NCBI GenBank assembly: GCA_003140075.1
Contig: PLIO01000070.1
Span: 77,363-141,362, forward strand
Source of the DNA: Acidobacteriaceae bacterium
GTDB taxonomy: Bacteria > Acidobacteriota > Terriglobia > Terriglobales > Acidobacteriaceae
Direction: 5' to 3'
DNA: 64,000 nucleotides
A model generated the notes under the pieces. It was not told the DNA's origin and ran no database searches. It saw only the letters and a program-made list of their open reading frames with translations. The position numbers and the translations under genes are program-made. Of this stretch, positions 13,530 to 41,000 are shown piece by piece. Numbering within the stretch: the stretch's first letter is position 1; every line of letters begins with the position of its first letter.

Positions 13530-14750
13530 ATGGTTGACGCTCCGGGCAGAAAAGTAGTTTTCAGCGACGAGGTTCTGCAGGATCCGTATCCCACGTACGC
13601 CCGCTTGCACGAAGAAGGTCCGCTGCATTTCTTGGATGTCGGCAAATGGGCGGTATGGTCGATTTTCAGTCACGCCGAGTGCTCCTCGATCGCGAAAGAC
13701 CCCCGGTTATCGGCAAAACGCGCGCAGCAGATGTTATTGCCGCTGCCCATCAGCCGCCAGGCTGAGTTCAGCGAACTCGCGCGCATGCTGGGCTTGTGGC
13801 TGATTTTCATGGACGCGCCGCAACACACGCGGTTACGCAAACTCCTCAACAAAGGATTTTCGCCGGCGGCGATTGAAGGCTTGCGCCCGCGAGTCGAAGC
13901 CATGGTTGACCTGATGCTGAAGCCGCTGCAGCGTGGTTCGGAAGCTGACCTCATGAGCGAATTCGCAAACCCCATGCCGGTGCGCATCATTCTGGAAATG
14001 CTGGGAATACCGCAGGAGTTGCGCGACATGTTCGTTAATTGGTCGCGGGACATCGCGGTGTTTCGGGGCAGTCCGGATCGCACGGTGGAGCAGGCGCAAG
14101 CGGCGCAAGATGCGCTCATTGGGTTAACCGATTTTTTTCGCAAGACCGTGGCGGAACGAAGGCGCAATAAAGGGAACGACCTGATCAGCCTTCTCATCGA
14201 CATCGAGGATGAAGGCGAAGTGCTGACCGAAGAGGAGTTATACGCGCAGTGTATCGCGCTGCTTTTCGCCGGGCACGAGACCACTCGAAACCTGATCGGC
14301 AACGGAATGTACACGCTCCTGAAGCACCCGGAAGAAACTGCGGAATTACGGGAAAAACCGGAGATGATCCGCACCGCCGTGGAGGAGCTGTTGCGTTACG
14401 AAAGTCCCGTGCAATTAACGGCGCGCGTGCTCAAGGAAGAGATCGAGGTTTGCGGCCGGCGCATACCGAAGAAGTGGTCGATCCTGTGCATGCTTGGTGC
14501 GGCGAACCGTGATCCAAAAAAATTCAAGGATCCCAATCGGTTAGACCTGAAAAGGCTGAACAACGAACACCTGGCTTTCAGCGCGGGCCCGCATTTTTGT
14601 ATTGGAGCGCAGCTCGCGCGGTTGGAGGGGCAGATCGCGCTCTTGAATCTGGTGCAGCGCTTCCCGGCGATGAAGCTGGCCGGCCCGCGGCCGGAGTGGG
14701 CTTCTACATTTGGATTCAGGGGCCTGAAAAGTCTTCCCGTGATTCTGTGA
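13530..14750 (+). CDS. Cytochrome P450
   Basis: AGHETTRN I-helix, ExxR (EELLRYESP), FSAGPHFCIGAQLARLE heme-binding loop. Confidence 0.95.
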   Translation: MVDAPGRKVVFSDEVLQDPYPTYARLHEEGPLHFLDVGKWAVWSIFSHAECSSIAKDPRLSAKRAQQMLLPLPISRQAEFSELARMLGLWLIFMDAPQHTRLRKLLNKGFSPAAIEGLRPRVEAMVDLMLKPLQRGSEADLMSEFANPMPVRIILEMLGIPQELRDMFVNWSRDIAVFRGSPDRTVEQAQAAQDALIGLTDFFRKTVAERRRNKGNDLISLLIDIEDEGEVLTEEELYAQCIALLFAGHETTRNLIGNGMYTLLKHPEETAELREKPEMIRTAVEELLRYESPVQLTARVLKEEIEVCGRRIPKKWSILCMLGAANRDPKKFKDPNRLDLKRLNNEHLAFSAGPHFCIGAQLARLEGQIALLNLVQRFPAMKLAGPRPEWASTFGFRGLKSLPVIL

Positions 14751-21234: not shown

Positions 21235-22218
21235 GTGCGCCCGCTGGCGCTTCGCACTACGCGGGCGAATGGGTGCATTTTGCAGGACACGACGAACCGA
21301 GCATCGACTTCCAAATTGTCGCCACTTCTAGTTTTTTCAATGCTGGGAGCGATTTCTCTGGCGATCTGGTGGGGTTCGCTCTTGTCTACGTTTGCTCTGG
21401 CTCTGAGCGACGAGCAATTCACCCACGTCCTGCTGATTGTGCCTATCAGCGCGGCCTTGATCATCCTGGATTGGCGCTCGCCCGAACCCTCCACCGGATC
21501 GGCCGTGAGGATTGGTTCAGCATTGCTGGCCGTCGCCGCTTTGCTGACCTGCGTTGTGAGATTGAAAGTGGCCGCGCTGGTCCCCGATTGTCAGCTTGCG
21601 GTGAACATGCTGGCGTTGGTGCTGTGGTGGATCGCGGCTTTTGTCTTTTGTTTCGGCACCGGTGCGTTCCGGCGCGCGCTCTTTCCTCTTTGCTTCCTAT
21701 TCTGGCTGGTGCCTTTCCCAGATTTCGTTTTGGCTCCCGTCATTAGTTGGCTGCAGCAAGGCTCTGCCGCTTCTGCCCATATACTTTTCGCGGCGGTGGG
21801 TGTTCCCGTGGCACAACATGGGATGCTGTTGCATATTCCAGGTCTGACGCTCGAGGTTGCGCCGGAGTGCAGCAGCATCCGTTCGAGCTTGATATTGATG
21901 GTCACGACCATGGTTCTTGCGCAGCTTCTCCTGCGCTCACCCTGGCGAAAGGCCTTGATCATCGCTGTGGCCATCCCTCTTTCTGTCGCCAAGAACGGGC
22001 TTCGCATATTTGCCCTCGGAATGCTCGCAACCCGCGCGAGCCCGAGCTTTCTGACGGGGAGACTCCATCGCCAGGGCGGGATCATCTTCTTTCTCATCGC
22101 TCTGGCTGCGGTATTCCTGCTTATTTGGATTTTGCGCCGGGGTGAATCGGAAAAGCCAAGACTCGCGTCGGGAGATGCGGTTCGAAAACAGACCGAACTT
22201 AAGGTCGATTCAACTTAG
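21235..22218 (+). CDS. Exosortase/archaeosortase family protein
   Basis: Multi-TM protein with PECSSIRSSLILM (Cys-containing exosortase motif) and AKNGLRIFALGML; exact start uncertain. Confidence 0.85.
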   Translation: MRPLALRTTRANGCILQDTTNRASTSKLSPLLVFSMLGAISLAIWWGSLLSTFALALSDEQFTHVLLIVPISAALIILDWRSPEPSTGSAVRIGSALLAVAALLTCVVRLKVAALVPDCQLAVNMLALVLWWIAAFVFCFGTGAFRRALFPLCFLFWLVPFPDFVLAPVISWLQQGSAASAHILFAAVGVPVAQHGMLLHIPGLTLEVAPECSSIRSSLILMVTTMVLAQLLLRSPWRKALIIAVAIPLSVAKNGLRIFALGMLATRASPSFLTGRLHRQGGIIFFLIALAAVFLLIWILRRGESEKPRLASGDAVRKQTELKVDST

Positions 22219-24826: not shown

Positions 24827-25238
24827 GCATCCAGTATGGGAACCCGTCACTGCGCCGAGTAGATTCCGGCAGTACATGAACCGCATTGGCCGGTAGGCCA
24901 ACAGGTCCAAATCGGAACTGATTGCCCATTAAGGGGCCCAAACTCGAATAGAAAATCGGAAGGGCATGAAGTGGTAGATGGGCACGTCCTCGGCAACTGC
25001 CAACTGAACGGAATTATGATTTGCATGAGCGCCGGCCGTTCACAGTATTCGACTCGAACGACGCTTCGCTGCCAGCACGCTCACGGAGCATCAGGGAAGG
25101 CCACTCATTGTTTGGACAGGGAGCGCCCAAATGCCTAATACCACTTGAGTATCGGAGTGAAACGAAAAAGGTAGGAATGCGCCGGTAGAACTGAATGCTG
25201 GGAGCGCGTGTACAATCCCTCAGCATCGGGAATGCTCA

Positions 25239-25592: not shown

Positions 25593-27209
25593 GTGTCGAT
25601 TGCCCTGGTTGTTTTCCTCGCATTCATCGCAGGTACTCTCGGAATCACATATTGGGCTGCGAAGCGCTCCCGCGGAGCTAGCGCGTATTTCGCCGCCGGT
25701 CGTGGCATCACAGCCTGGCAAAATGGATTTGCAGTAGCGGGTGATTTCATGAGTGCGGCGTCATTTCTCGGGATTGTCGGTCTGATTGCACTGCAGGGGT
25801 TCGACGGATTTTTGTATGCGGTTGGCGGCTTTGCCGCTTTCGTGACGATCCTCCTGTTGGTCGCGGAACCACTTCGCAACACCGGGAAATACACCATGGG
25901 AGATGTGTTGGCCTACCGCCTGCGGCCACGGCCAGTGCGGGCGCTGGCTGCTCTCAGCACACTGGCGACGATTCTGTTTTACATGATTGCGCAAATGGTT
26001 GGTGCGGGAGCGCTGGTGGCGCTGCTTCTGGCGAATTCCGGCATCAGCTACAACATGGCGGTAACCGGAGTGGGCATCCTGATGATGGTATACGTGGTTT
26101 TCGGCGGCATGTTGGCGACCACGTGGGTGCAGATCGTCAAAGCTATGCTGTTATCGACGTGCGCCTTCGCTCTGACCATCTTGGTGTTGGGACATTTTCA
26201 TTTTGATCTCGGCGAGTTCTTTGCCGCGGCCAGCCGGGTCGCATACCATCAGAAAGATCAACTGGTTGTCCGAGACTTCCTACAACCCGGTTTGCACTAC
26301 AAGCCGCCCTATGGGCCGCTCGATTTGATCTCCCTAGGGCTGGTATTCGCTGTCGGAACAGCGGGGCTTCCGCACATTCTGGTGAAGTTCTACACCGTGC
26401 CTGACGCGCAAACAGCACGCAAGAGCGTAGTGTGGGCCATGATTCTGATCGGCAGCTTTTATGTAATGACCTCCGTGCTCGGCCTCGGCGCGGCCGCCAT
26501 CGTGGGCCCAGACTATATTGTCACTCACGGTGGAACCAACATGAGTGGTCCGCTGTTGGCACAAGCTCTGGCGGGTGACGTTTTTCTGGCTCTGGTGTCG
26601 GCCGTTGCTTTCGCCACGATTCTTGCCGTTGTGGCGGGCTTGACGATCAGCGCATCCACTTCCTTCGCTCACGATTTCTGGATCAATGTGATCCACCATG
26701 GAGTGGAGCGGAGGTCCGGCGAAACGGTCCTGATGGCGCGGGTTTCGGCGCTGGCGGTTGGAGCGGTTGCAATTATGATCGCGATTGCATTGGGACCGGC
26801 GTCCAATGCCGGGATTCTCGCAACCCTCGGCATGGCGGTGGCCGCCTCCGCGAACTTTCCCGTCGTTGTGCTCTCGATCTTCTGGCGTCGCTTCAATACC
26901 GCGGGGGCCATCGCCGGTTTGTCGGTTGGCCTGCTGGCCTCGATCGGGCTCATCCTGGCGAGTCCGAACTTCATGGGCATCGATCCACTCAACGCAACCG
27001 GGACCGTACACCACCTGATTCAAGCGAAGGCGTGGTTTCCATTGGAGAACGTAGGCATCGTGAGCGTGCCGCTCGGTTTTTTGGCGGCGATTGTAGGCAC
27101 TCTGCTCAGCGATGAACCCAGTTCCGAAGCGAAGTTCAACGAGTTCATGGTCCGCGCGAACACGGGGCTGGGAGCGGAAGAAGCCGCGGCAAAAACCACC
27201 GTGAGCTGA
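25593..27209 (+). CDS. actP: Cation/acetate symporter-like sodium:solute symporter
   Basis: SSS-family topology, YFAAGRGITAWQNGFAVAGDFMSAASFLG, partner DUF485; GTG start. Confidence 0.88.
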   Translation: MSIALVVFLAFIAGTLGITYWAAKRSRGASAYFAAGRGITAWQNGFAVAGDFMSAASFLGIVGLIALQGFDGFLYAVGGFAAFVTILLLVAEPLRNTGKYTMGDVLAYRLRPRPVRALAALSTLATILFYMIAQMVGAGALVALLLANSGISYNMAVTGVGILMMVYVVFGGMLATTWVQIVKAMLLSTCAFALTILVLGHFHFDLGEFFAAASRVAYHQKDQLVVRDFLQPGLHYKPPYGPLDLISLGLVFAVGTAGLPHILVKFYTVPDAQTARKSVVWAMILIGSFYVMTSVLGLGAAAIVGPDYIVTHGGTNMSGPLLAQALAGDVFLALVSAVAFATILAVVAGLTISASTSFAHDFWINVIHHGVERRSGETVLMARVSALAVGAVAIMIAIALGPASNAGILATLGMAVAASANFPVVVLSIFWRRFNTAGAIAGLSVGLLASIGLILASPNFMGIDPLNATGTVHHLIQAKAWFPLENVGIVSVPLGFLAAIVGTLLSDEPSSEAKFNEFMVRANTGLGAEEAAAKTTVS

Positions 27210-27225: not shown

Positions 27226-28842
27226 TCAGCGATAGTGTGGCGGATTGACGGAGCGATCCATACCCATGCATTTCTCTCCGCCGGGTGCGACGTTGACACT
27301 GATCAGATGTGGGCGCTTCGACGAGAACGCTTGTTTCAACGCGGGTTCGAGATCTTCGGGCCGGTCCACTTCCTGCGCGGTTACCCCATAGCCCTGAGCT
27401 ATTTTAACCACGTCGATGCCGGGCAAGTCCATCCCCGCAACGTTACGCCCCACCTGAGTAAAATCGCAAAAGGCCTTCAACGCAGAGTAGTCCGCATTTC
27501 GCAGCACGATGATCACAACGGGGAGGTTGTGCTGAGCGGCACTCCAGAGAGTTTGGATCGAATATTGAATCGAGCCATCTCCAATCGGACACACGACTCG
27601 CCGGTCGGGATGTGCCATCTGGAGCCCAACGGCCGCGGGTAAGCCAAACCCCAAGATGCCGTTCGGCACAGAGTAGAAAGAGCCGGGTTCGTCCAGCATG
27701 AGATGGCGGTCGAGATCTCCTTTTGAAGACGGACACTCTTCGGAAATGATTACACTGCTCGGCATCACTCTATTCAGAATCTCGAACAAATAAGCGGGTG
27801 TCATGGGATATTCAGGTTTCGCTTCTGCCGGATCAACTCGTCGCGGTGTAACTCTCGGTTCTTTCCTTTTGGCATGAGTGCGAAGGTATTTGGCCGCAGC
27901 AGAAATGTTGCCGACAATGCTGTTTCCGATCAATGCCGCGGCAGCTTCGTTCGGCGAGTTCGTGATTTGAAAAAGCCTGGTTCCGGGTTGGATTGCATTG
28001 CCCGGCACATATGCGTAGTAAAGAAAAACCGGCGCGCCCAAGACTACAACCGTGTCGTATTTGGCGAGCTGATCTGCAAGTGGTTGTTGAGCGGGCAGCA
28101 AGCCTCCGCGAAACAGCCGATGCGTTCGCGGGAAGGTCCAGCGCGGAGGGATTGGCTGTTGATAGACATCGGCATTGAGGTGCTCGGCGAGTGCGATGAC
28201 GTCGTGCCACGCCCGGTCTTCCTCAATCTGAGAACCGGCGACGATTGCGGGCTTGCGACTCAAGTTAAGCGCGCGAACCACTTCGTCCAACGCCGCGGGA
28301 TCGGGCAACACAGTGTGATTTACTTCGCGGGCAACGACGGACTGGCATTCGTGAGTCCAGTCGTCCATAGGAATCGAAAGGAACACCGGTCCCATGGGCG
28401 GTTGCATGGCAAGGTAATAAGCTCGCGCAATCGCTGCCGGAACGTCCTCTGCGCGAAGCGGTTCGTAGGCCCATTTCACATAGGGTTTCACCACCTCCAC
28501 CGCGCGGCTCACCAGAAACGGTTCTGCCAGGACTTGGCGGCGATCTTGTTGCCCCGTAGTCACTACGAGAGGGGCGTGGCAGTAAAAGGCATCGATCAGT
28601 GCAGAAAGTCCGTTGCCGGCGCTGGCGATGGAGTGCAAATTTACAAACGTGGCGTTTCCCCGGGCCATCGCATAACCGAGCGCCATCCCCGCCGCGGAAC
28701 GTTCGTGCAATGCCAGCACGTATCGAAAATCGGACGGCAGGTCGCGCAGAAAAGGTAACTCCGTCGATCCCGGGTTCCCAAAGATGACGGTCATTCCCAA
28801 GTCGCGCAGGAGTTGATATGTGACTTCTCGTACTGTGCTCAT
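27226..28842 (-). CDS. Benzoylformate decarboxylase-like TPP enzyme
   Basis: VIFGNPGSTELPFLRDLP, LHERSAAGMALGYAMA, IGDGSIQYSIQTLWSAAQHNLPV. Confidence 0.85.
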   Translation of the reverse strand: MSTVREVTYQLLRDLGMTVIFGNPGSTELPFLRDLPSDFRYVLALHERSAAGMALGYAMARGNATFVNLHSIASAGNGLSALIDAFYCHAPLVVTTGQQDRRQVLAEPFLVSRAVEVVKPYVKWAYEPLRAEDVPAAIARAYYLAMQPPMGPVFLSIPMDDWTHECQSVVAREVNHTVLPDPAALDEVVRALNLSRKPAIVAGSQIEEDRAWHDVIALAEHLNADVYQQPIPPRWTFPRTHRLFRGGLLPAQQPLADQLAKYDTVVVLGAPVFLYYAYVPGNAIQPGTRLFQITNSPNEAAAALIGNSIVGNISAAAKYLRTHAKRKEPRVTPRRVDPAEAKPEYPMTPAYLFEILNRVMPSSVIISEECPSSKGDLDRHLMLDEPGSFYSVPNGILGFGLPAAVGLQMAHPDRRVVCPIGDGSIQYSIQTLWSAAQHNLPVVIIVLRNADYSALKAFCDFTQVGRNVAGMDLPGIDVVKIAQGYGVTAQEVDRPEDLEPALKQAFSSKRPHLISVNVAPGGEKCMGMDRSVNPPHYR

Positions 28843-29039
28843 GCTGTGCTCACTGTCACGTCTCAATTCGACAGACGACGAATCTGGGATGCGGAAGTTA
28901 TATCACTTCGCGCGAAAGCAGAGTCAAACCCCCATCGCAACTCGACGGTTGAACTGATCTTCCGCAGGATGGTATTGTCACTCACTCTCGCGATTCGAAG
29001 AGTTGAAAGATCCCTTGAGAAAACCGGGGTTGAACCAGC

Positions 29040-29969
29040 ATGGCTGTGAAGGTTTGCATTGTCGGATGCGGCGCGCTGGGCAGCGTGTTTGCCGCACATC
29101 TGGCACGCGTCGACGACGTCGAGGTTCACGTTTATGACGTCTCCGAAGCACATACGCACGCGATCACTGAGCGTGGCTTACAGATCAGCGGCGCTGTCGA
29201 ATTCACCGCCAAGGTCCACGCTACATCCCACCCTCGCGAGATTCCGCCTTGTGAGTTCGGCATTTTTGCGACCAAGAGTTTGCACACGCGCGCCGCTCTC
29301 GAGCAGACGGCGCACATTTTCGGAACTTCCGGCGCAGTGTGTTCGGTGCAGAACGGCCTGGGCAACGAAGAAATTATTGCCGAACATGTGAAGCACGTAA
29401 TCCGCGGCGCGACAACCATGGCCGCACACCTCATCGGGCCGGGCCATGCGGGGTTTGAATTCTACAGCGACCTCTGGATTGGGCCCTTCGAGCCCACGGG
29501 CACTTCTTACGCATGCGTCGAGCAGTTGGCGGGACTGCTGAATCGCGCCGGACTGCACGTGGTTGCGCTGCAGGACGCGCGGGGCGCGCAGTGGACCAAG
29601 CTGATTTTCAACGCCGCAGTCAATCCGGTGGATGCACTCACTCTGCTCCACCATGGCGCCGCCACGCGTTTCCCGCCCACGGGGTCGCTCTACGAAGCCT
29701 TGTTGCAGGAAGGAGAATCCGTGGCCGAAGCTCTCGGCATTGCATTGCCATGGGATGCGCGGCAGATGATCGCCGAGGGCGCTAACGCCACTCAGAAGAG
29801 AAATGTGAGCATGTTGTTGGATGTGCTGGCCAAGCGGCCGACCGAAATCGATTTTCTGAATGGCGCCATCGCAGACTGGGGAGAAAAGCTGGGCGTCCCG
29901 GTTCCGCTGAACCGTGCGATCTGGCAATTGGTCAAGGGACTGGAACACTCGTGGACTGGTCCTTCGTGA
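29040..29969 (+). CDS. 2-dehydropantoate 2-reductase family (ApbA/PanE)
   Basis: VCIVGCGALGSVFAAHLAR, SVQNGLGNEE, KLIFNAAVNPVDALT. Confidence 0.9.
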   Translation: MAVKVCIVGCGALGSVFAAHLARVDDVEVHVYDVSEAHTHAITERGLQISGAVEFTAKVHATSHPREIPPCEFGIFATKSLHTRAALEQTAHIFGTSGAVCSVQNGLGNEEIIAEHVKHVIRGATTMAAHLIGPGHAGFEFYSDLWIGPFEPTGTSYACVEQLAGLLNRAGLHVVALQDARGAQWTKLIFNAAVNPVDALTLLHHGAATRFPPTGSLYEALLQEGESVAEALGIALPWDARQMIAEGANATQKRNVSMLLDVLAKRPTEIDFLNGAIADWGEKLGVPVPLNRAIWQLVKGLEHSWTGPS

Positions 29970-30080
29970 ATATGTCGGAGGAATCCCGATCGAGCGGCCG
30001 CGCACATCGCGCTCAGAACAACACATAGCGCTGCAGAACAACTAAACCTGTGATATTTTCATTGTCCTCGGGGAGGGATC

Positions 30081-30575
30081 ATGGCGATTACCGATACGAA
30101 AGCAAGTCTCGATTCGGTTGTGCGCGAATATGCGTTTCCGGACGTTCATATTGGCTCGAGCGAAGACGAATCTCCTTGGGTGCCCTTCAAGGAGAATTCG
30201 TTTATCCGGCACCTTGCGTTCGACGTGCGCAGCAACATGTACGCCAACGTTTTGTGGGTGACCAAGGGCGGAATGCTGGGCCGGCACCGCCATCGCGGAA
30301 GGGTCTTCGGCTATACCGTCGAAGGCAGTTGGCGATATCTGGAGTATGACTGGATCGCGCGACCCGGCAGCTATGTGCAGGAGAGCCCCGGCGTCACTCA
30401 TACACTAGTCTCCGATGAGGGCATGAAAACGATCTTCTGGCTCAATGGCTCGCTGGAGTTCTACGACGATGGCGAGAACCTGCTCGAGACACTGGATGTC
30501 TTTTGGTTCATCGATCACTATTTGAGTTATTGCCGCGAGCGCGGCATCAAGGTTAACAGGAAGCTGTTCGTGTAA
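30081..30575 (+). CDS. Cupin-type protein resembling the 2,4'-dihydroxyacetophenone dioxygenase family
   Basis: GGMLGRHRHRGRVFGYTVEGSWRYLEYDWIARPGSYVQESPGVTHTL. Confidence 0.75.
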   Translation: MAITDTKASLDSVVREYAFPDVHIGSSEDESPWVPFKENSFIRHLAFDVRSNMYANVLWVTKGGMLGRHRHRGRVFGYTVEGSWRYLEYDWIARPGSYVQESPGVTHTLVSDEGMKTIFWLNGSLEFYDDGENLLETLDVFWFIDHYLSYCRERGIKVNRKLFV

Positions 30576-30605
30576 GAACCGAAGCTTCCAATCAGCGGTC
30601 AACCG

Positions 30606-31769
30606 TTATCGAATTCTTGTCCCATCAACCTTCACCCGGAAGAGCACGTACGGCTTTTGGCGCAGATCCTGACCGTTGTGGAAGGCGGCTTGCCGTTCGA
30701 CTTGGTTCGCCGTGAAATAGAGGTAACCATCCGCGGCCAGCGACAATGTATCCGGCCAGAGCACGCGCCGATCGTGCACCAGCGTTTCGATTTCGCTATT
30801 CAAGTTTCGCCGTCGAATGGCGTTGTGTTCGTAGTCGCTGAGATAGACTCGCCCCTGCGCATCGGATTCAAGACCGTCACCCGCTCCTCCCTTTTCGCCG
30901 AGATCCTTCACGGTCGCGGCGACTTCAGCGTCGGACCTATTCTGGTCCGTAAGCGCGTCCACGCTCACCCTGTAGAGATGCCGGCTGGTGAGGGGGCAGT
31001 AGTAGAGAATTTTTCCATCCGGGCTGATGGCAATTCCATCGGAGCCAACCGAGAACCTCGCCGGCGGCTGTCCCGGAAGTCGCATCTGCAGGATCTCTCC
31101 TTCGACCACAGGAACAAACTCTGGATCAGGTTTCGTCGATGAATGGTCGTTCAGACGGCGCCAGCTTTTACCCGTGGCCAGATCTACCACGATGATGCCG
31201 TTCGGTCCACTCGAAGTCGAATCGGTAATGAATGCCATGCCTTCGACGCCGCGGTGTAAGTCGAACCTGACGTCATTCAAATAAGTTGTGGTCAGAGCAA
31301 TATCTGTGGGGAAAATAATTTTCTTGACGACTTTGTCGCTATTGAGATCCACGGCGATCAACTTCGGACCACCCAAGCTGGTCGGTCCGAATCCAATACT
31401 CCCGGTGTCGAGAATCCACAACCGATTTCCAGTTGGGTCCACCACCACACTCTGCACCGAGACTAATTTGTCGGCCTGATTGTCGCCGCTCTTGTAGCCA
31501 TTGATGTCTGCGTTGGGGTAGGGGAAGGTCTTGCCGTGTTTCACTTCTGCCACGGTGTATTCGACGTTGTCTCCCCACTTCGGAAAGTTCACGAAGATTC
31601 GCCCATTGTTCGCAACCGTGACACCGGTCGGCATCGCGCCGCTAAAAGTCGCGACCACTTCCAGTTTGCCGATAGAGCGATCCGTCGCCAGTTCCTGAGA
31701 CTGAATCACTCCAGAGAGAGCGCAGAAAAGAAGCAAAGACGCAAATTGCATCGCTGTTTGTGGTGGCAT
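30606..31769 (-). CDS. Major royal jelly / yellow-like beta-propeller protein, secreted
   Basis: Signal-like N-terminus; GRIFVNFPKW, LWILDTGSIG, YFTANQVERQAAFHNGQD. Confidence 0.78.
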   Translation of the reverse strand: MPPQTAMQFASLLLFCALSGVIQSQELATDRSIGKLEVVATFSGAMPTGVTVANNGRIFVNFPKWGDNVEYTVAEVKHGKTFPYPNADINGYKSGDNQADKLVSVQSVVVDPTGNRLWILDTGSIGFGPTSLGGPKLIAVDLNSDKVVKKIIFPTDIALTTTYLNDVRFDLHRGVEGMAFITDSTSSGPNGIIVVDLATGKSWRRLNDHSSTKPDPEFVPVVEGEILQMRLPGQPPARFSVGSDGIAISPDGKILYYCPLTSRHLYRVSVDALTDQNRSDAEVAATVKDLGEKGGAGDGLESDAQGRVYLSDYEHNAIRRRNLNSEIETLVHDRRVLWPDTLSLAADGYLYFTANQVERQAAFHNGQDLRQKPYVLFRVKVDGTRIR

Positions 31770-31846
31770 GGCAGAAGACTAGCAAGAAATGACTTCGGTG
31801 TGTAGCCAACCGGACTCGGAAACGCCATTTGCTATCATGCAACCCC

Positions 31847-33082
31847 ATGGGCTCTACGAGGCGTTACGAGAATACGCTGGTCGGAATTCTTTTCTTTACC
31901 TGGGGCACAGTTTTCCTCGACCGGATGTCGCCACTCTATCTGGCGCCATATTTCGCTCCGGAATTCCGTCTCGGCAATGCACAAATCGGAACCCTTGCTT
32001 CGGTGCTGGCGGTCACGTGGGCAGCGTCGACATTTTTTTTTGGCGCTCTGTCCGATCGTCTGGGCCGCAAACCGGTGCTGGTCCCCGCCGTATTCGTGTT
32101 CTCGATATTGTCCTGGATGACGGGCCTGGCTCACAGCTACCATCAACTGCTCTTGATCCGCGCGCTGATGGGCATTGCGGAAGGACCGACTTGGTCCATC
32201 ATGACGGCTCTGATTGAGGAATCCTCGTCGGTCAAACGACGCGGACGAAACATAGGCCTGGTGGTCAGTGCCGCGGCGCTGGTAGGCCTGGCGGCAGCGC
32301 CGGTATTGACGACGCAAGTGGCGGCGCGCTGGGGTTGGCGGTCGGCTTTTCTTGTTGCAGGCATTCCGGGGTTGCTGGCCGGTTTCTTGATTTGGAAGTT
32401 TGTGAAAGAGCCAGACGCCGGGACAAACCACGCAAAGCCCTCGATGCTCGAATATTTTTCCATTCTGCGCTATCGCAACATCTGGCTGTGTTGCCTGGGC
32501 GCGACGGGGTTCATGTCCTGGCTGTTTGCGCTGAGTGTATTCGCGCCGCTGTACATCACGGAGGTGGCGCATGAACCGGCGACGACGGCCGGGTTCTTGC
32601 TGGGCGCGAGCGGATTGGGCAGCTTCTTTCTCGGCTTTCTTCTTCCTTCGCTCTCTGACCGAATGGGGCGCAAGCCTGTCCTATTGCTAATGGCAATGCT
32701 CTCCGCAGTTGTGCCGCTCGCGTTTCTTGTTCCGGTTTTGTACGTGTATCCCCTGCTGCTGGCGGCGATAGTTTTCGTCGCCAACACCGGTCAGGGCATA
32801 GCAAGCCTGATCATGGTGCTGGTTCCCACCGAGAGTGTGCCGTCGCAGTTCCGGGCTACATCGATCGGCCTCACGACTCTGGTGGGGGAAATCATGGGTG
32901 CCACCGGCGCACCGATTCTGGCTGGCACGCTGGCAGAAAAACACGGCCTCGGTTTGACCATGTGGTTGGCGGCAGGGGGCAGTGCGGTGCTGTTTCTCGC
33001 AGCGCTGTTCCTGCAGGAACCTCGCCTCGACCCAAGCAGCGTTCTACCTACTTCGTCTGCGGGTGGAGTTAGTCAGCAGTGA
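31847..33082 (+). CDS. MFS transporter
   Basis: 12-TM-like hydrophobicity, GALSDRLGRKPVL and SLSDRMGRKPVL loop motifs. Confidence 0.9.
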   Translation: MGSTRRYENTLVGILFFTWGTVFLDRMSPLYLAPYFAPEFRLGNAQIGTLASVLAVTWAASTFFFGALSDRLGRKPVLVPAVFVFSILSWMTGLAHSYHQLLLIRALMGIAEGPTWSIMTALIEESSSVKRRGRNIGLVVSAAALVGLAAAPVLTTQVAARWGWRSAFLVAGIPGLLAGFLIWKFVKEPDAGTNHAKPSMLEYFSILRYRNIWLCCLGATGFMSWLFALSVFAPLYITEVAHEPATTAGFLLGASGLGSFFLGFLLPSLSDRMGRKPVLLLMAMLSAVVPLAFLVPVLYVYPLLLAAIVFVANTGQGIASLIMVLVPTESVPSQFRATSIGLTTLVGEIMGATGAPILAGTLAEKHGLGLTMWLAAGGSAVLFLAALFLQEPRLDPSSVLPTSSAGGVSQQ

Positions 33083-33697
33083 CAAGCTGCGGGCTCGATC
33101 TAGGCGATGTTTCCGATTGCCGGGCGCCCTAGGATCCTGCGGGCGGTATCAAGGAGAGAGACTACCGCAGTCGACTGTTCGTTTTTCCGCCATGCCATGT
33201 AAAGCTCGATCTTCGCCTCAGGTTCATTCAGTCGCACGGAAACCAGATCTATGCCAGAGACCGAACGATTAACGACCGCGCCCACTCCCAGGAATATCCC
33301 TTTGCCCGATCCAATCATAATGGCACCAGCTTCTTCATGGGGTTCAACATGCCGGGCCATCAGGTGCGACGTCAATCCCTGCTTACTGTATAAAGCCATG
33401 ATCTTGTCGTAAAGCCCGGTGGAGAAGCTGCGGTTGAAAATGATCAAGGGTTCGTCTGCAATCTCTTCCAATCGGAGAAATCTGCGTTTCGAGAGGTGGT
33501 GTGTTCTCGGCAGGACGACAACAAATTCTTCTTCGAAGAGCAACTCGCAGTCCAGGTTGACTTGGTCGACGGGAGGCCGCAAAAAGCCAATGTCAATTTC
33601 GCCCTTGCGCAGCGCCTCATTCTGAAAGCTGGAGAAGACATCCCTGCACTCGACGTCGATTGCGGGAAGCTGCGTGCGGTGCTCGAATACTACCTTG

Positions 33698-35485: not shown

Positions 35486-36421
35486 TCAATTTGGTTTGCC
35501 GGTTAATTGAGCGAACGTGATGCGCTTGCCGACAATCTGGCGAACGGCTATATCGAAGCGGCCAGCATCGTCGATGTCCTTGCGGTTGTTGAATCGGAAC
35601 ATCTGTTCGTCGAGGTAACGGTGAAGATGAAACGGCTCTACCGAAACATACGTGCCAGAGATGCCGCGCTTCAGGAGACTCCAGAAGTTCTCCAAGCCGT
35701 TCGTGTGTACGCGGCCATCTACGTACTGAGTCGCGTGGTCAACGACTTGATGCGCGTAGTCCGCTGCCAGTCCATCGTAGGACATGAGAGCATCGCTGTA
35801 GAGAGCCGCGCCAGCAGTTACATGCTTGCGTACTTCCTCTTGCAAAACAGTTTTGCGACGGCTAGGAACCACGGCAGCCCGAACCTTTCCCCCGCGCTCA
35901 AGAATGCCCATAACGGCAGTCTTGTCCTTGGTGCCAGTTCCAGTAATCCGGCGCTTGCGCTCCGAGACGTGCATATTTCGCGCCTTGCCGCCGATGAAAG
36001 TTTCATCAACTTCGACTTCGCCGCCGAGTTTGGAACCAAAGAAATCGTCCTGCATCGCAAGGCGAATGCGTTGGAGCATAAACCATGCAGACTTCTGGGT
36101 AACGCGAACGTCCCGCGCAATCTCGTAACTGCTGACGCCGTTCTTGCAATTCGTGAGCATCCAAGTTGCGGTAAGCCACTTGTCCAACGAAATTGGCGAA
36201 TCCTCGTAGATCGTTCCAACCTTGACAGAGAACTCCCGTTTCGGGTGATGGCTACCACACTTCCAAGTGCGGCGCTTTGCGTTAAAGCTAACCTTGGTAG
36301 CTCCGCAACCGGGACAAACCACGCCGTTCGGCCAGCGACGAACAGCAATGTAGTCGATGCAGTTGTCAGAATTCGAGAAGTAAACAATCGCTTCTTGAAG
36401 GCTCTTTGGTTCTTGGTTCAT
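35486..36421 (-). CDS. IS1595 family (ISXO2-like) transposase
   Basis: N-terminal zinc-ribbon (VVCPGCGATK...WKCGSHH), EVDETFIGGKARN, LYSDALMSYDGL, HTNGLENFWSLLKRGISGTYVSV. Confidence 0.93.
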   Translation of the reverse strand: MNQEPKSLQEAIVYFSNSDNCIDYIAVRRWPNGVVCPGCGATKVSFNAKRRTWKCGSHHPKREFSVKVGTIYEDSPISLDKWLTATWMLTNCKNGVSSYEIARDVRVTQKSAWFMLQRIRLAMQDDFFGSKLGGEVEVDETFIGGKARNMHVSERKRRITGTGTKDKTAVMGILERGGKVRAAVVPSRRKTVLQEEVRKHVTAGAALYSDALMSYDGLAADYAHQVVDHATQYVDGRVHTNGLENFWSLLKRGISGTYVSVEPFHLHRYLDEQMFRFNNRKDIDDAGRFDIAVRQIVGKRITFAQLTGKPN

Positions 36422-36483
36422 CTTCGTTCTCCAGTAACGAAAATGTATCAAAAACCAGTGGGCGAGTCAAGTAAATTATTGCC

Positions 36484-36491
36484 CTAATTAG
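36484..36491. repeat. Target-site duplication, right copy: CTAATTAG
   Basis: Identical to 33698-33705. Confidence 0.93.
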
Positions 36492-36875
36492 GCCGCCCAA
36501 ACCGGATGCGATGCCAATCCTGACAATCCCGGACTCTCCTTTTTGGGCGTGGCGAGCAGCCTCCATCGCATGTCCGGCCTGCAAGACGAGCTTTCTCGCT
36601 TCACCGAGAAATACCTGACCTGCCTTGGTGAGCGCAACGCGCCTCTTATCTCGCATAAAGAGCGTGACGCCCAGAGCTTCCTCTAATTGACGGATCTGAC
36701 GGCTCAGCGGCGGTTGCGCGATGTGCAGTTGTTGCGCTGCCTTGCTGAAGTTGAGATATTCGGCAACCGCGATGAAGTACCGAACGTGACGGAGTTCCAC
36801 GGGTCGAAGCTCCTTCCTCGCGAATGAGCAGATGCAGCCTCGGAACCACGGCCTTTAAGGGCTTGAACAATCGGT

Positions 36876-37778
36876 CTAGGCAACGTTCCTGTGTGCCGAG
36901 TCCCGGAAGATGCGGCGTGCAACATCGAGGAAAGAGAACACAGCCGTCGATTTCTCGTTTTTCCGCCACGCCAGGTGGAGCTCGATCTTTGCTTCAGGTT
37001 CATTCAGCCGCACAGAAACCAAATCGCGCGAACGATGGGGAATTGCGCCCGCTCCCAAAAGAATCGCTTTTCCCGATGCCACCATAGCTGCGCCTTCTTC
37101 ATTGGACTCAACGTGGGTAACCGTCAAGTGAGAGGTCAAACCCTGCTTGCTGTACAAACTCAGGATCTTTTCGTAAAGCCAACTGGAAAAGCTGCGGTCG
37201 AAAATGATCAAGGGTTCGTCCGCAACGTCTTTTAACCTTACAAACTTGCGTTTCGCCAAGTGGTGCGTCCTGGGCAGGACGACGACAAACTCTTCCTCGA
37301 AGAGTAGTTCGCAGTCCAAGTGGACCTGATCGATGGGGGGGCGGAACAAGCCGATGTCGATTTCGTTCTTCCGCAGAGCCTCATTCTGCAGGCTGGAGCA
37401 GATGTCCATACATTCAACGTCGACGTTGGGAAACCGTTTATTGTGCTCGCGCACCGCGTTGCCGATGATTCCGCCTAAACGGGAAGGGACGCCAATCCTT
37501 ACGATTGCGGATTCTGCTTTCTGGGCCTGACGAGCCGCCTCCATCGCATGTCCGGCTTGCACAATGAGCTTTCTGGCCTCCTCGAGAAAGACTTGTCCCT
37601 CCTTGGTCAGGGCGACGCGCCGCTTGTTCCGCAAAAAAAGTGCAACTCCGAGATCCTCCTCGAGCTGGCGGATCTGGCGACTCAGAGGCGGCTGCGCGAT
37701 GTGCAGCAGTTGCGCCGCCTTGCTGAAGTTAAGGCATTCCGCAACGGCAATAAAGTATCGAACGTGACGAAGTTCCAC
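36876..37778 (-). CDS. LysR-family transcriptional regulator (intact paralog)
   Basis: VELRHVRYFIAVAECLNFSKAAQLLHIAQPPLSRQIRQLEEDLGVALFLRNKRRVALT HTH; GTG start. Confidence 0.92.
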   Translation of the reverse strand: MELRHVRYFIAVAECLNFSKAAQLLHIAQPPLSRQIRQLEEDLGVALFLRNKRRVALTKEGQVFLEEARKLIVQAGHAMEAARQAQKAESAIVRIGVPSRLGGIIGNAVREHNKRFPNVDVECMDICSSLQNEALRKNEIDIGLFRPPIDQVHLDCELLFEEEFVVVLPRTHHLAKRKFVRLKDVADEPLIIFDRSFSSWLYEKILSLYSKQGLTSHLTVTHVESNEEGAAMVASGKAILLGAGAIPHRSRDLVSVRLNEPEAKIELHLAWRKNEKSTAVFSFLDVARRIFRDSAHRNVA

Positions 37779-37791
37779 GGGGTCGTATTCT

Positions 37792-37806
37792 ATACCCCTT
37801 AGGTAT
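37792..37806. promoter_or_regulatory. LysR-type box ATAC-CCCTTAG-GTAT
   Basis: Perfect ATAC-N7-GTAT within TATACC-N5-GGTATA, 14 bp upstream of the LysR start codon. Confidence 0.75.
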
Positions 37807-37916
37807 ACTTTCGAAATCTTTCCTCCACCACGAATATTGAGTGTGCCCGATACAGAGACAATGGGCATCTGACCCCGATGTCTTTTCCATGGAGGTATCC
37901 CCTCATTTTCGAGTCC

Positions 37917-37931
37917 ATACCCAAAAGGTAT
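37917..37931. promoter_or_regulatory. LysR-type box ATAC-CCAAAAG-GTAT
   Basis: Perfect ATAC-N7-GTAT within CATACC-N5-GGTATG, between LysR (-) and the TonB receptor (+). Confidence 0.75.
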
Positions 37932-38071
37932 GACCATCCGACCAAACATGTATTGGACAGTTTCCTGGTTTCAAACGATGCTCTCGAAAAACCAAGTGCG
38001 CTCGCGAGGAACCTGCCTAGCCGGTTGGTAACCGGCGAGCGCTTTGCGCTACGTGAGGGAGAAAGAAAGCT

Positions 38072-41000
38072 ATGAGACTACGTTCCATGTTGAACGTTTG
38101 GTTAGTGGCCGTGGCAGCCGTTGGTCTGACTCCTCACATGCTCGGACAGGCGACAGTCAGCTTTGCGCAGCTAAATGGAACTGTCCAGGACGCAAATGGC
38201 AGGGTTGTGGTTAGCGCCGCTGTGGTCTTGCGCGAGCTAAGCACAAACCATTCTTACAACGCCACTGCTAACACGTCGGGCTATTACTTTATTCCAAATC
38301 TTCCCCCCGGGCAGTACGAGCTTACGGTGCAATACTCCGGTTTTGCGAAATACGTGGAAACCGGGATTCCGCTGACTGTGGGGCAGACGGCGACTGTTAA
38401 CGTTACTTTGAAGGTAGCGACTGCCGGTGAGTCGATCACGGTCAGCACCGAAGCCCCGGCCGTCGAACCCAGCCGCACCGAGATTAGCCAGGTCATCGAC
38501 ACCCATGAGATCCAGTCGTTGCCCACGTCGACCCGCCAGTTCGTCGACTTTGCCCTGTTGACGCCCGGGGTCGCGACCGGAAGGACCAGCCTGCAATCTA
38601 CTTTCACCGAGCCGGACGTTACCAGGATTTCGTTCGGCGGGATGCGCGACCTGAGTAATGCGGTGACCGTCGACGGCGCCGACTACATCGACGAAGGCAC
38701 CGGCTCGCAGCGCGCTACTCCTTCACAGGAGGCGGTCAGCGAATTTCGTGTGGTCAACAATAGCTTCGGAACTGAGTACGGCCGCGCTCTCGGCGGCATC
38801 GTCAACGTAGTTACCAAGACCGGTACGAACGATTTGCACGGGTCGGTCTATGGATACGTCAACAACCAGGGCGCTGATTCAAAAGGGCTCCTCACCCAAG
38901 CGGCCTACGACCAATATCGCCGAAACCAGTTTGGAGCCACTCTAGGCGGCCCGATCCGCAAGGATAAGACCTTCTTCTTCACGAATTACGAGGGACAGAG
39001 GCTCGGGCAATCGCCCACGTATCCCGCTACCCTTATCGGCAATCTAAGCACAATCCAGGCCGTAAAGACTTCTCTTGGACTTGCGCCTGAGAACCTCAGC
39101 ACTCTCAAGACGCTCAACAACGACAACGGGTTTGTGCGGTTGGATCACCAATTCAATGCCAACAACCGCCTGTCCATTCACTATGGAATCGTGGATGCGC
39201 GCGATCTGAATGTACTGGTCGGCGATACTCTCGATGGCGGCGGAATCGGCGCGCCCAGCGACGGACACGACGCCTTCCTGCGCGACCAGTCCCTGGTGGG
39301 ATCGATCAACTCCGTGTTGAAGCCTGATTTGGTGAACACGTTCCTCGTCCAGTACGCCAGGCGTCAGTACAATTTCCCGGCAGTCACGGGACAACCCAAT
39401 CTCGACGTGCCTAACACCCTCTCCTTCGGACATAATTTCGGCACGTTTGATGCCCTGGACGAAAGCCGGCAGCAGATCTCCGACAGTTTGGCATGGATCA
39501 AAGGCACCCACTACTGGAAGTTTGGCGTGGATTCGAATTTCATCCAGAATTTCGTGATTTGGCCCGGCTTCACTCCCATGCGGATCGTTCTGCCGAACAT
39601 CAACTGCATGGTGGATTTTGCCAACTTTGAAAATCCCAACCCCACGCTGGCGAATCAAATTCCGTCGGTTCCGGCGGATGGACCGTGCCCAACTGCATCG
39701 ATCACGCCCCCCGACTTCGGGCTTCCGCCCGCTGGTACAGTCGGGGGTAATCCGAACGATCCTCTCAACGGGGTGCCCATCGTGTTTTGGGGAGCTCCGG
39801 TTGGAACCGGACCGATCGTGCAGGGCAGCCTTCCGCCGCCTGTCCCCACCACTTGGCAGAATGCCTACGTCAATCCCCAGGACTACGATGTCAACCTGCA
39901 TCACAATTACTTTGGAGCTTACTTTCAGGATCAGTGGCGCATCAATCCCGAGTTCACCTTGAATTACGGCTTGCGCTGGGACGTGGAGACGGGTTTATCG
40001 CAGATCGTTAACCCGGATCACCGCAGCTTCCAGCCTCGGATCGGTTTTGCTTATTCGCCTACCAAACACACCGTCATTCGAAGCGGCTTCGGCATTTTCG
40101 ACGATCACTACAACATGACGTTCTTCTTTGTGACTTACCCGCAGCGTGAGGTTGTGATTCCCAATGCACCGCAGCCCTGGGTGAGGCAAGGAAACTCAAC
40201 CGCCACGTGGGTGCTCAACCAGTTGAGTTTCGACGCTCCCAACGTTGGCAACATCGTGGGCGGCGTCCCAACGCCTCTTCCCTATCCGGATGGATCGACG
40301 GTGCCCACCCCGGCGCAGGCGGCGGCGGCTATGGTATTGACGGGGCAGGCTCCGCCTAACTTCAGCACCGGCCCCGGTCCCGGACAAAGTTCGACCCTTC
40401 CCCCAGGCGGGTCGTTTGTCACCAACAGCGGCGGCGGCTTTGATCGCAATACGCGAACCGCGTACTCGGAGCAAGCCAGCCTGCAGCTCGATCAGGAGGT
40501 TGGGAAGGGGATGGTTTTAAGTGTAGGGTACCTATTCTTGCGGGCACACAAGCAGGTACGTCCGGAAAACTTGAATGTTTGCCCGTCCGCCGGGCTTACC
40601 AACTCAGCTACCACCTGTGCGCCCGCAGAGGACATTCCGGGTCCTCCCATCACGCCAACGGGACCGTTCCCAAACAACGAAATGCTTGACGGCAAGCCCG
40701 CATTCAGCGGCGTCCTCTATAACAACGCCGGCCTGATGTATTACCTGGACGGTTCCGGAAATGCCGAATACAACGGCGCTACGTTTGCGGTCACCGACCG
40801 GCTGGGCCAGTACTTGCGCTTCAGCGCGAACTACACCTTCTCCCATACTCAGGACGATGGAACCTTCACCACTTTCGTTAGCACTCCTGAGAGTCTGTAC
40901 AACCGAAATCTGGAACGGGCCGACTCGGTGCAGGATGTCCGCCATCGTTTTGTCGCCAACTTTACTGCCGACACGCCCAAGCACAGCTCTACTGTGTTAC

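Follow-up and report, generated by a model that had tools for sequence, protein, structure and literature searches.

The lysR–Oar locus and its probable operator boxes

Within the window, the 64,000-nucleotide stretch of acidobacterial DNA analysed here, genes for a LysR-type regulator and for an Oar-like TonB-dependent receptor are divergently oriented, and the sequence between them carries two copies of a palindromic box (Table 1). The positions given to these boxes in the initial annotation are exact to the base, and the 6-bp arms described around them (TATACC..GGTATA and CATACC..GGTATG) were also found as stated. Each box contains T-N11-A inside dyad symmetry, the pattern that defines operators of LysR-type regulators (LTTRs). 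The lysR start codon is the GTG at 37776-37778, yielding a protein that begins MELRHVRYF, as its orthologs and BenM likewise begin. The start of the longest open reading frame (ATG at 37949) was rejected, since it would wrongly place both boxes within the gene. A GGTAT half-site reported between the boxes is present at 37894-37898, but it is not conserved in the nearest relatives and is therefore probably due to chance. No Rfam match to an RNA element was found across 36700-38200, and a scan of 37700-38100 found no terminator-like site.

Table 1. Positions of genes and of observed or predicted regulatory features in the window.
Feature	Position	Strand	Description
Probable third regulon site	25138-25152	+	Upstream of DUF485-like ORF and monocarboxylate symporter (25593-27209); PWM 15.6
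Benzoylformate decarboxylase-like enzyme	27226-28866	-	NCBIfam NF005485, 642 bits vs cut-off 493
MFS transporter	31829-33082	+	Best model aromatic acid/H+ symporter family, below cut-off
LysR-type regulator, 300 aa	36876-37778	-	GTG start; Pfam HTH_1 and LysR_substrate
Predicted lysR promoter	37787-37814	-	TCGAAA-16-TAGAAT; -10 ends 8 nt before GTG
Box 1	37792-37806		ATACCCCTTAGGTAT, ATACC-N5-GGTAT; in -35/-10 spacer of lysR promoter; predicted autoregulatory site
Box 2 (Site 1)	37917-37931	+	ATACCCAAAAGGTAT, ATACC-N5-GGTAT; upstream of Oar receptor, centre about -65
Site 2, probable activation site	37939-37953	+	CGAC-CAAACAT-GTAT; 3' half-site abuts -35
Predicted Oar promoter	37954-37982	+	-35 TGGACA (37954-37959), 17 nt, -10-like GATGCT (37977-37982)
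Oar-like TonB-dependent receptor, 1148 aa	38072-41518	+	Pfam CarboxypepD_reg and OMP_b-brl_4

The source genome, of 5.77 Mb, contains three copies of the tight form of the motif, ATACC-N5-GGTAT, and none of its reversed control; boxes 1 and 2, which lie 125 bp apart, are two of these copies. The third (C24:21910, L001) was set aside, being located within a coding frame with no cluster genes close by. The looser ATAC-N7-GTAT is found four times in the window, where 0.12 are expected from shuffled sequence, and 20 times genome-wide against 13 for the reversed control. A genome-wide scan had been suggested at the outset as a check. At that scale the tight form is rare and the loose one is weak evidence, so that the case for the boxes rests on comparative evidence. 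Another loose match, at 14240-14254, lies without context in a cytochrome P450 gene, has a PWM score of 11.9 and was taken as a probable chance occurrence.

A rigid module upstream of the Oar receptor

LysR orthologs were collected from Acidobacteriota assemblies (60-86% identity, plus one contig-end fragment at 99%), and neighbourhoods of 8-20 kb were compared around most of them. In all 14 loci compared in detail, a rigid module with the layout ATAC-N7-GTAT–N18–GTATTGGACA–N17–SATGCT, anchored by box 2, lies upstream of the orthologous Oar/TonB receptor. The eight ATAC/GTAT positions are invariant in 14/14 loci, and GTATTGGACA and SATGCTCT follow them almost without indels; the linker after box 2 is 18 nt in 13 loci and 19 nt in L064, and the variants seen are TTTGACA in L068 and CATTCT in L064. 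Mean pairwise identity is 100% at the box positions, 47% in the N7, 81% in the block of Site 2 and the -35, and about 30% in the flanks, which is near random and therefore indicates that the module is held by selection. In one assembly (L022, 4123-4704) the Oar ortholog is seemingly frameshifted and appears as two overlapping frames.

The Oar promoter was assigned by inspection, on the basis of gapless conservation across loci. It was missed by a consensus promoter scan of 37700-38100, and its -10-like element is a poor match to the consensus. The centres of Site 1 (37924) and Site 2 (37946) are 22 bp apart, about two helical turns, and would lie at -65 and -43 relative to a predicted transcription start site at 37989, a geometry that would suit the LTTR pattern of a recognition site near -65 and a weaker activation site near -35. 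No third conserved box was seen over the -10 in the locus alignment. The Oar gene itself is preceded by a Shine-Dalgarno-like GAGGGAG. This predicted layout resembles that of BenM/CatM operators at PbenA and PcatB in Acinetobacter baylyi, which likewise combine a perfect ATAC-N7-GTAT Site 1 with a weaker Site 2 beside the -35; PbenA has an imperfect Site 2 that is followed closely by the -35, TTGAAC (PMC6628147).

Box 1 and the predicted lysR promoter

Box 1 ends 13 nt from the lysR start codon, and it is contained in the spacer of the only promoter-like match in 37700-38100. Among 17 lysR genes, a TANAAT ending 6-10 nt upstream of the start codon is found in every case (17/17), and the 20 nt preceding the start contain nothing resembling a Shine-Dalgarno sequence in any of them; because of these two features, the lysR mRNA is probably leaderless. 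Of the 17, 11 retain a perfect box 1, separated from the start codon by 13 nt or, in a single case, by 15. The other 6 of 17 lysR promoters have no perfect box, which suggests that autoregulation is less conserved than control of Oar. The ortholog match at L037 (G069:C10:82668-83570) shows one in-frame TGA, reflecting either an error or decay.

Each box remains with its own gene where the two genes are separated. In nine loci (L018, L059, L060, L065, L066, L067, L092, L093, and L107) a benzoate-CoA ligase gene has replaced lysR as the neighbour of Oar, and the module is still found upstream of the receptor. Conversely, box 1 still precedes a lysR gene that has no Oar next to it (L019, L059, L060, L066, L067, and L071), and it is also present at an intact second lysR in L069. 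Four loci carry the two boxes side by side, at distances of 125, 128, 130, and 165 bp. Conservation across orthologous loci had been named in the initial annotation as a test of the boxes, and they prove to be conserved with their genes. Together with the linkage of box to gene after separation and the co-occurrence described below, this strongly supports the original proposal that LysR would control both its own gene and the Oar receptor.

The window also contains a second lysR paralog (33095-33629 and 36366-36800; 69-83% identical), split by about 2.9 kb of sequence that encodes a transposase of the IS1595 family (35486-36451) as well as an ORF of 503 aa with no Pfam match. This remnant has neither an operator box nor a -10, and an intact copy with a box is found in a relative (L069/L015).

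Co-occurrence of regulator and module

The distribution of the module was followed in 397 genomes of the order, using a threshold of E <= 1e-75 for LysR orthologs and defining the module by at most one mismatch and an adjacent Oar gene. A LysR ortholog is present in 14 of these genomes, 13 of which have the module, compared with 1 of the 383 genomes without LysR (Fisher p 2.4e-22, uncorrected for shared ancestry). Of the two exceptions, the genome with LysR (G372) has a module with a one-base-longer linker (L064), and the genome without it (G332) has a contig of about 3 kb carrying Oar, the module and the ligase, a contig so short that its lysR may lie outside it.

A PWM built from 25 sites was scanned over 323 kb and gave 28 sites with scores of 15.6 or more, every one of them upstream of cluster genes; the maximum in the reversed control is 12.6. 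The matrix had been trained on 25 of these 28 sites, and the remaining three are at 25138 in the window, at 3874 in L071 (between MFS and pcaH), and at 1824 in L060 (between an aldehyde dehydrogenase and a symporter). The sequence and positions of the boxes, their conservation and the co-occurrence of module and LysR are direct observations.

The regulator and its relatives

The domains of an LTTR are clearly recognized in the protein, with Pfam scores of 85.7 bits for HTH_1 and 102.3 bits for LysR_substrate, both above their cut-offs. Its closest relatives with solved structures are BenM and CatM. Identity with BenM is 34% overall and 35 of 59 residues in the DNA-binding domain, and the recognition-helix residues for reading ATAC-N7-GTAT, 28-36 (AQPPLSRQI), and R53 are identical in the two proteins. 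Membership of the BenM/CatM family is ruled out by the curated NCBIfam models, for which scores are far below cut-off (BenM 146 vs 600 bits, CatM 130 vs 580). The likeness to the BenM/CatM operator consensus drawn in the initial annotation is right, but it does not extend to the family of the protein. The top-scoring curated LTTR models are AlsR (NF045775, 225 bits vs cut-off 430) and HcaR (NF007385, 205 bits vs 356), and PcaQ (TIGR02424) reaches 100 bits vs 304; this LysR belongs to no named LTTR subfamily among the curated models. AlsR is associated with acetoin and HcaR with phenylpropionate catabolism, and the gene contexts of both differ from the one described here.

In BenM, residues R160 and Y293 of a secondary site are needed for the response to benzoate (PMC6628147). 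The positions aligned to them are both F in this LysR, which makes BenM-like sensing of benzoate at a secondary site unlikely but is compatible with the main cleft accepting a different aromatic effector.

Neighbouring genes and a further site

The site at 25138 is the next-best PWM site in the window behind boxes 1 and 2. Its box and AAAC-GAAAAAG flank (AAACGAAAAAG) recur upstream of MFS/pcaH in L016/L071 and of MCT in L060 and, with one mismatch, upstream of MCT in L061. The 25138 and L071 sites have a common 15-bp core and the conserved flank, most of which is also found in L060, and the distance from this element to a TACAAT -10 varies among loci.

Several genes around lysR are conserved members of its neighbourhood. 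The benzoylformate decarboxylase is syntenic in many lysR loci, the MFS transporter in L015/L069, L016/L071, L061, and L066, and the shared genes also include those for a ketopantoate-reductase-like enzyme, an MRJP/SMP-30-like protein and the monocarboxylate symporter, which scores just below its family cut-off. The decarboxylase, ketopantoate-reductase-like and MRJP/SMP-30-like genes (27226-31769) have no obvious boxes of their own. Elsewhere in the window, an exosortase gene (21235-22218) belongs to the EpsH family, with an XrtC-like best model that is below cut-off.

Clusters in relatives include benzoate-CoA ligase (531-558 bits vs cut-off 375), pcaH and pcaB above cut-off, and pcaG beside them, the last assigned from position and homology. 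In the source genome, pcaHG is located on a different contig from the window, which lies on contig 95, and this operon (L074) has no good box in the PWM scan, and no benzoate-CoA ligase passes the family cut-off. The link with aromatic compounds therefore rests on the decarboxylase and transporters of the window, and on the relatives. From this gene context, it is plausible that the cluster forms an aromatic-acid regulon with an aromatic effector.

A model for regulation and its alternatives

Taken with the geometry of promoters and boxes, which suggests activation of Oar and repression of lysR, these observations make it likely that the boxes are the operators of the adjacent LysR, with box 1 serving self-repression and box 2 activation of Oar with a probably aromatic effector. 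Binding by this LysR, the transcription start sites, the direction of regulation and the effector are what we infer. On box 1, LysR would repress transcription of its own gene by sitting within the spacer of a promoter that is probably leaderless. On box 2, a LysR tetramer at Site 1 (about -65) would also touch the weaker Site 2 (about -43), and effector-bound LysR could recruit RNA polymerase to the promoter of the receptor. The probable effector is an aromatic acid or a product of cleaving its ring, and the Oar receptor would supply the neighbouring catabolic cluster by taking up its substrate, either as such or as an oligomeric precursor.

It is unlikely that LysR at box 2 mainly represses Oar, with Sites 1 and 2 occluding the -35 until an effector derepresses it. 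Site 2 does abut the -35, and regulators of the BenM type also repress when no effector is present (PMC6628147), but the poor -10, the placement of the Site 1 centre at -65, as is typical for LTTR-activated promoters, and the lack of a conserved third box over the -10 in the alignment all favour activation. That the two boxes serve autoregulation only, for example through a repressor looped across 125 bp, with Oar not a target, is highly improbable. In the window both do lie between lysR and Oar, ahead of the lysR start codon; however, box 2 and the -35/-10 stay with Oar in loci where lysR is not adjacent. The four box-to-box spacings share no helical phase, and box-to-box looping was rejected on that ground.

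Another possibility, which we regard as very unlikely, is that a different LTTR binds the boxes and the adjacent LysR is incidental. The source genome encodes several further LTTRs, and T-N11-A sites are common to LTTR subgroups (PMC6449761, PMC12609908), but the module follows this particular ortholog across the 397 genomes and box 1 keeps its distance from the start codon in 11 of 17 lysR genes. In favour of functionless chance palindromes is the genome count of the loose motif, 20 against 13 for the reversed control; with the invariant promoters (14/14) and the co-occurrence, that explanation is refuted by conservation and has next to no credibility. The operators of the adjacent LysR, repressing its own gene and activating Oar, thus remain our preferred reading.

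Relation to known systems and biological significance

The locus shares a probable aromatic-catabolism setting with BenM/CatM, but it belongs to Acidobacteriota, its predicted target is an Oar/TonB receptor of the outer membrane, and it has a separate box on a probably leaderless lysR promoter. The extended consensus AkACC-N5-GGTAT serves CatR, ClcR, TfdR, and related regulators, which, as proposed here, are often divergent from their targets and control their own genes; unlike here, those targets are ring-cleavage operons in Proteobacteria rather than a TonB receptor (PMC6449761). There is a precedent in another phylum for a TonB receptor that imports an aromatic substrate for catabolism, namely DdvT of Sphingobium SYK-6, the TonB-dependent receptor for a lignin-derived dimer (PMC6874591).

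In the literature searched, no account of such an LTTR regulon in acidobacteria was found. We see about an even chance that the regulator represents a subgroup of acidobacterial LTTRs not described before, which falls outside the BenM, CatM, PcaQ, and HcaR models, has a leaderless, self-repressed gene and runs a regulon linking an Oar-type TonB receptor with aromatic (benzoylformate/benzoate/protocatechuate) catabolism. The proposed regulon is new and its kind already known: the evidence is strong, the conceptual distance modest, and the predictive value useful. It would mean that the CatR/BenM-type operator code operates beyond the BenM/CatM family and in another phylum, and it would provide a computable regulon motif for a bacterial family known mostly from metagenome assemblies. 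Acidobacterial genomes encode dozens of Oar-like TonB receptors (39 Oar-like matched stretches in the source genome), and the operator link leads to a concrete substrate prediction for one of them. If this reading is true, an orphan Oar receptor, of which soil acidobacteria have many, would gain a specific class of aromatic substrate.
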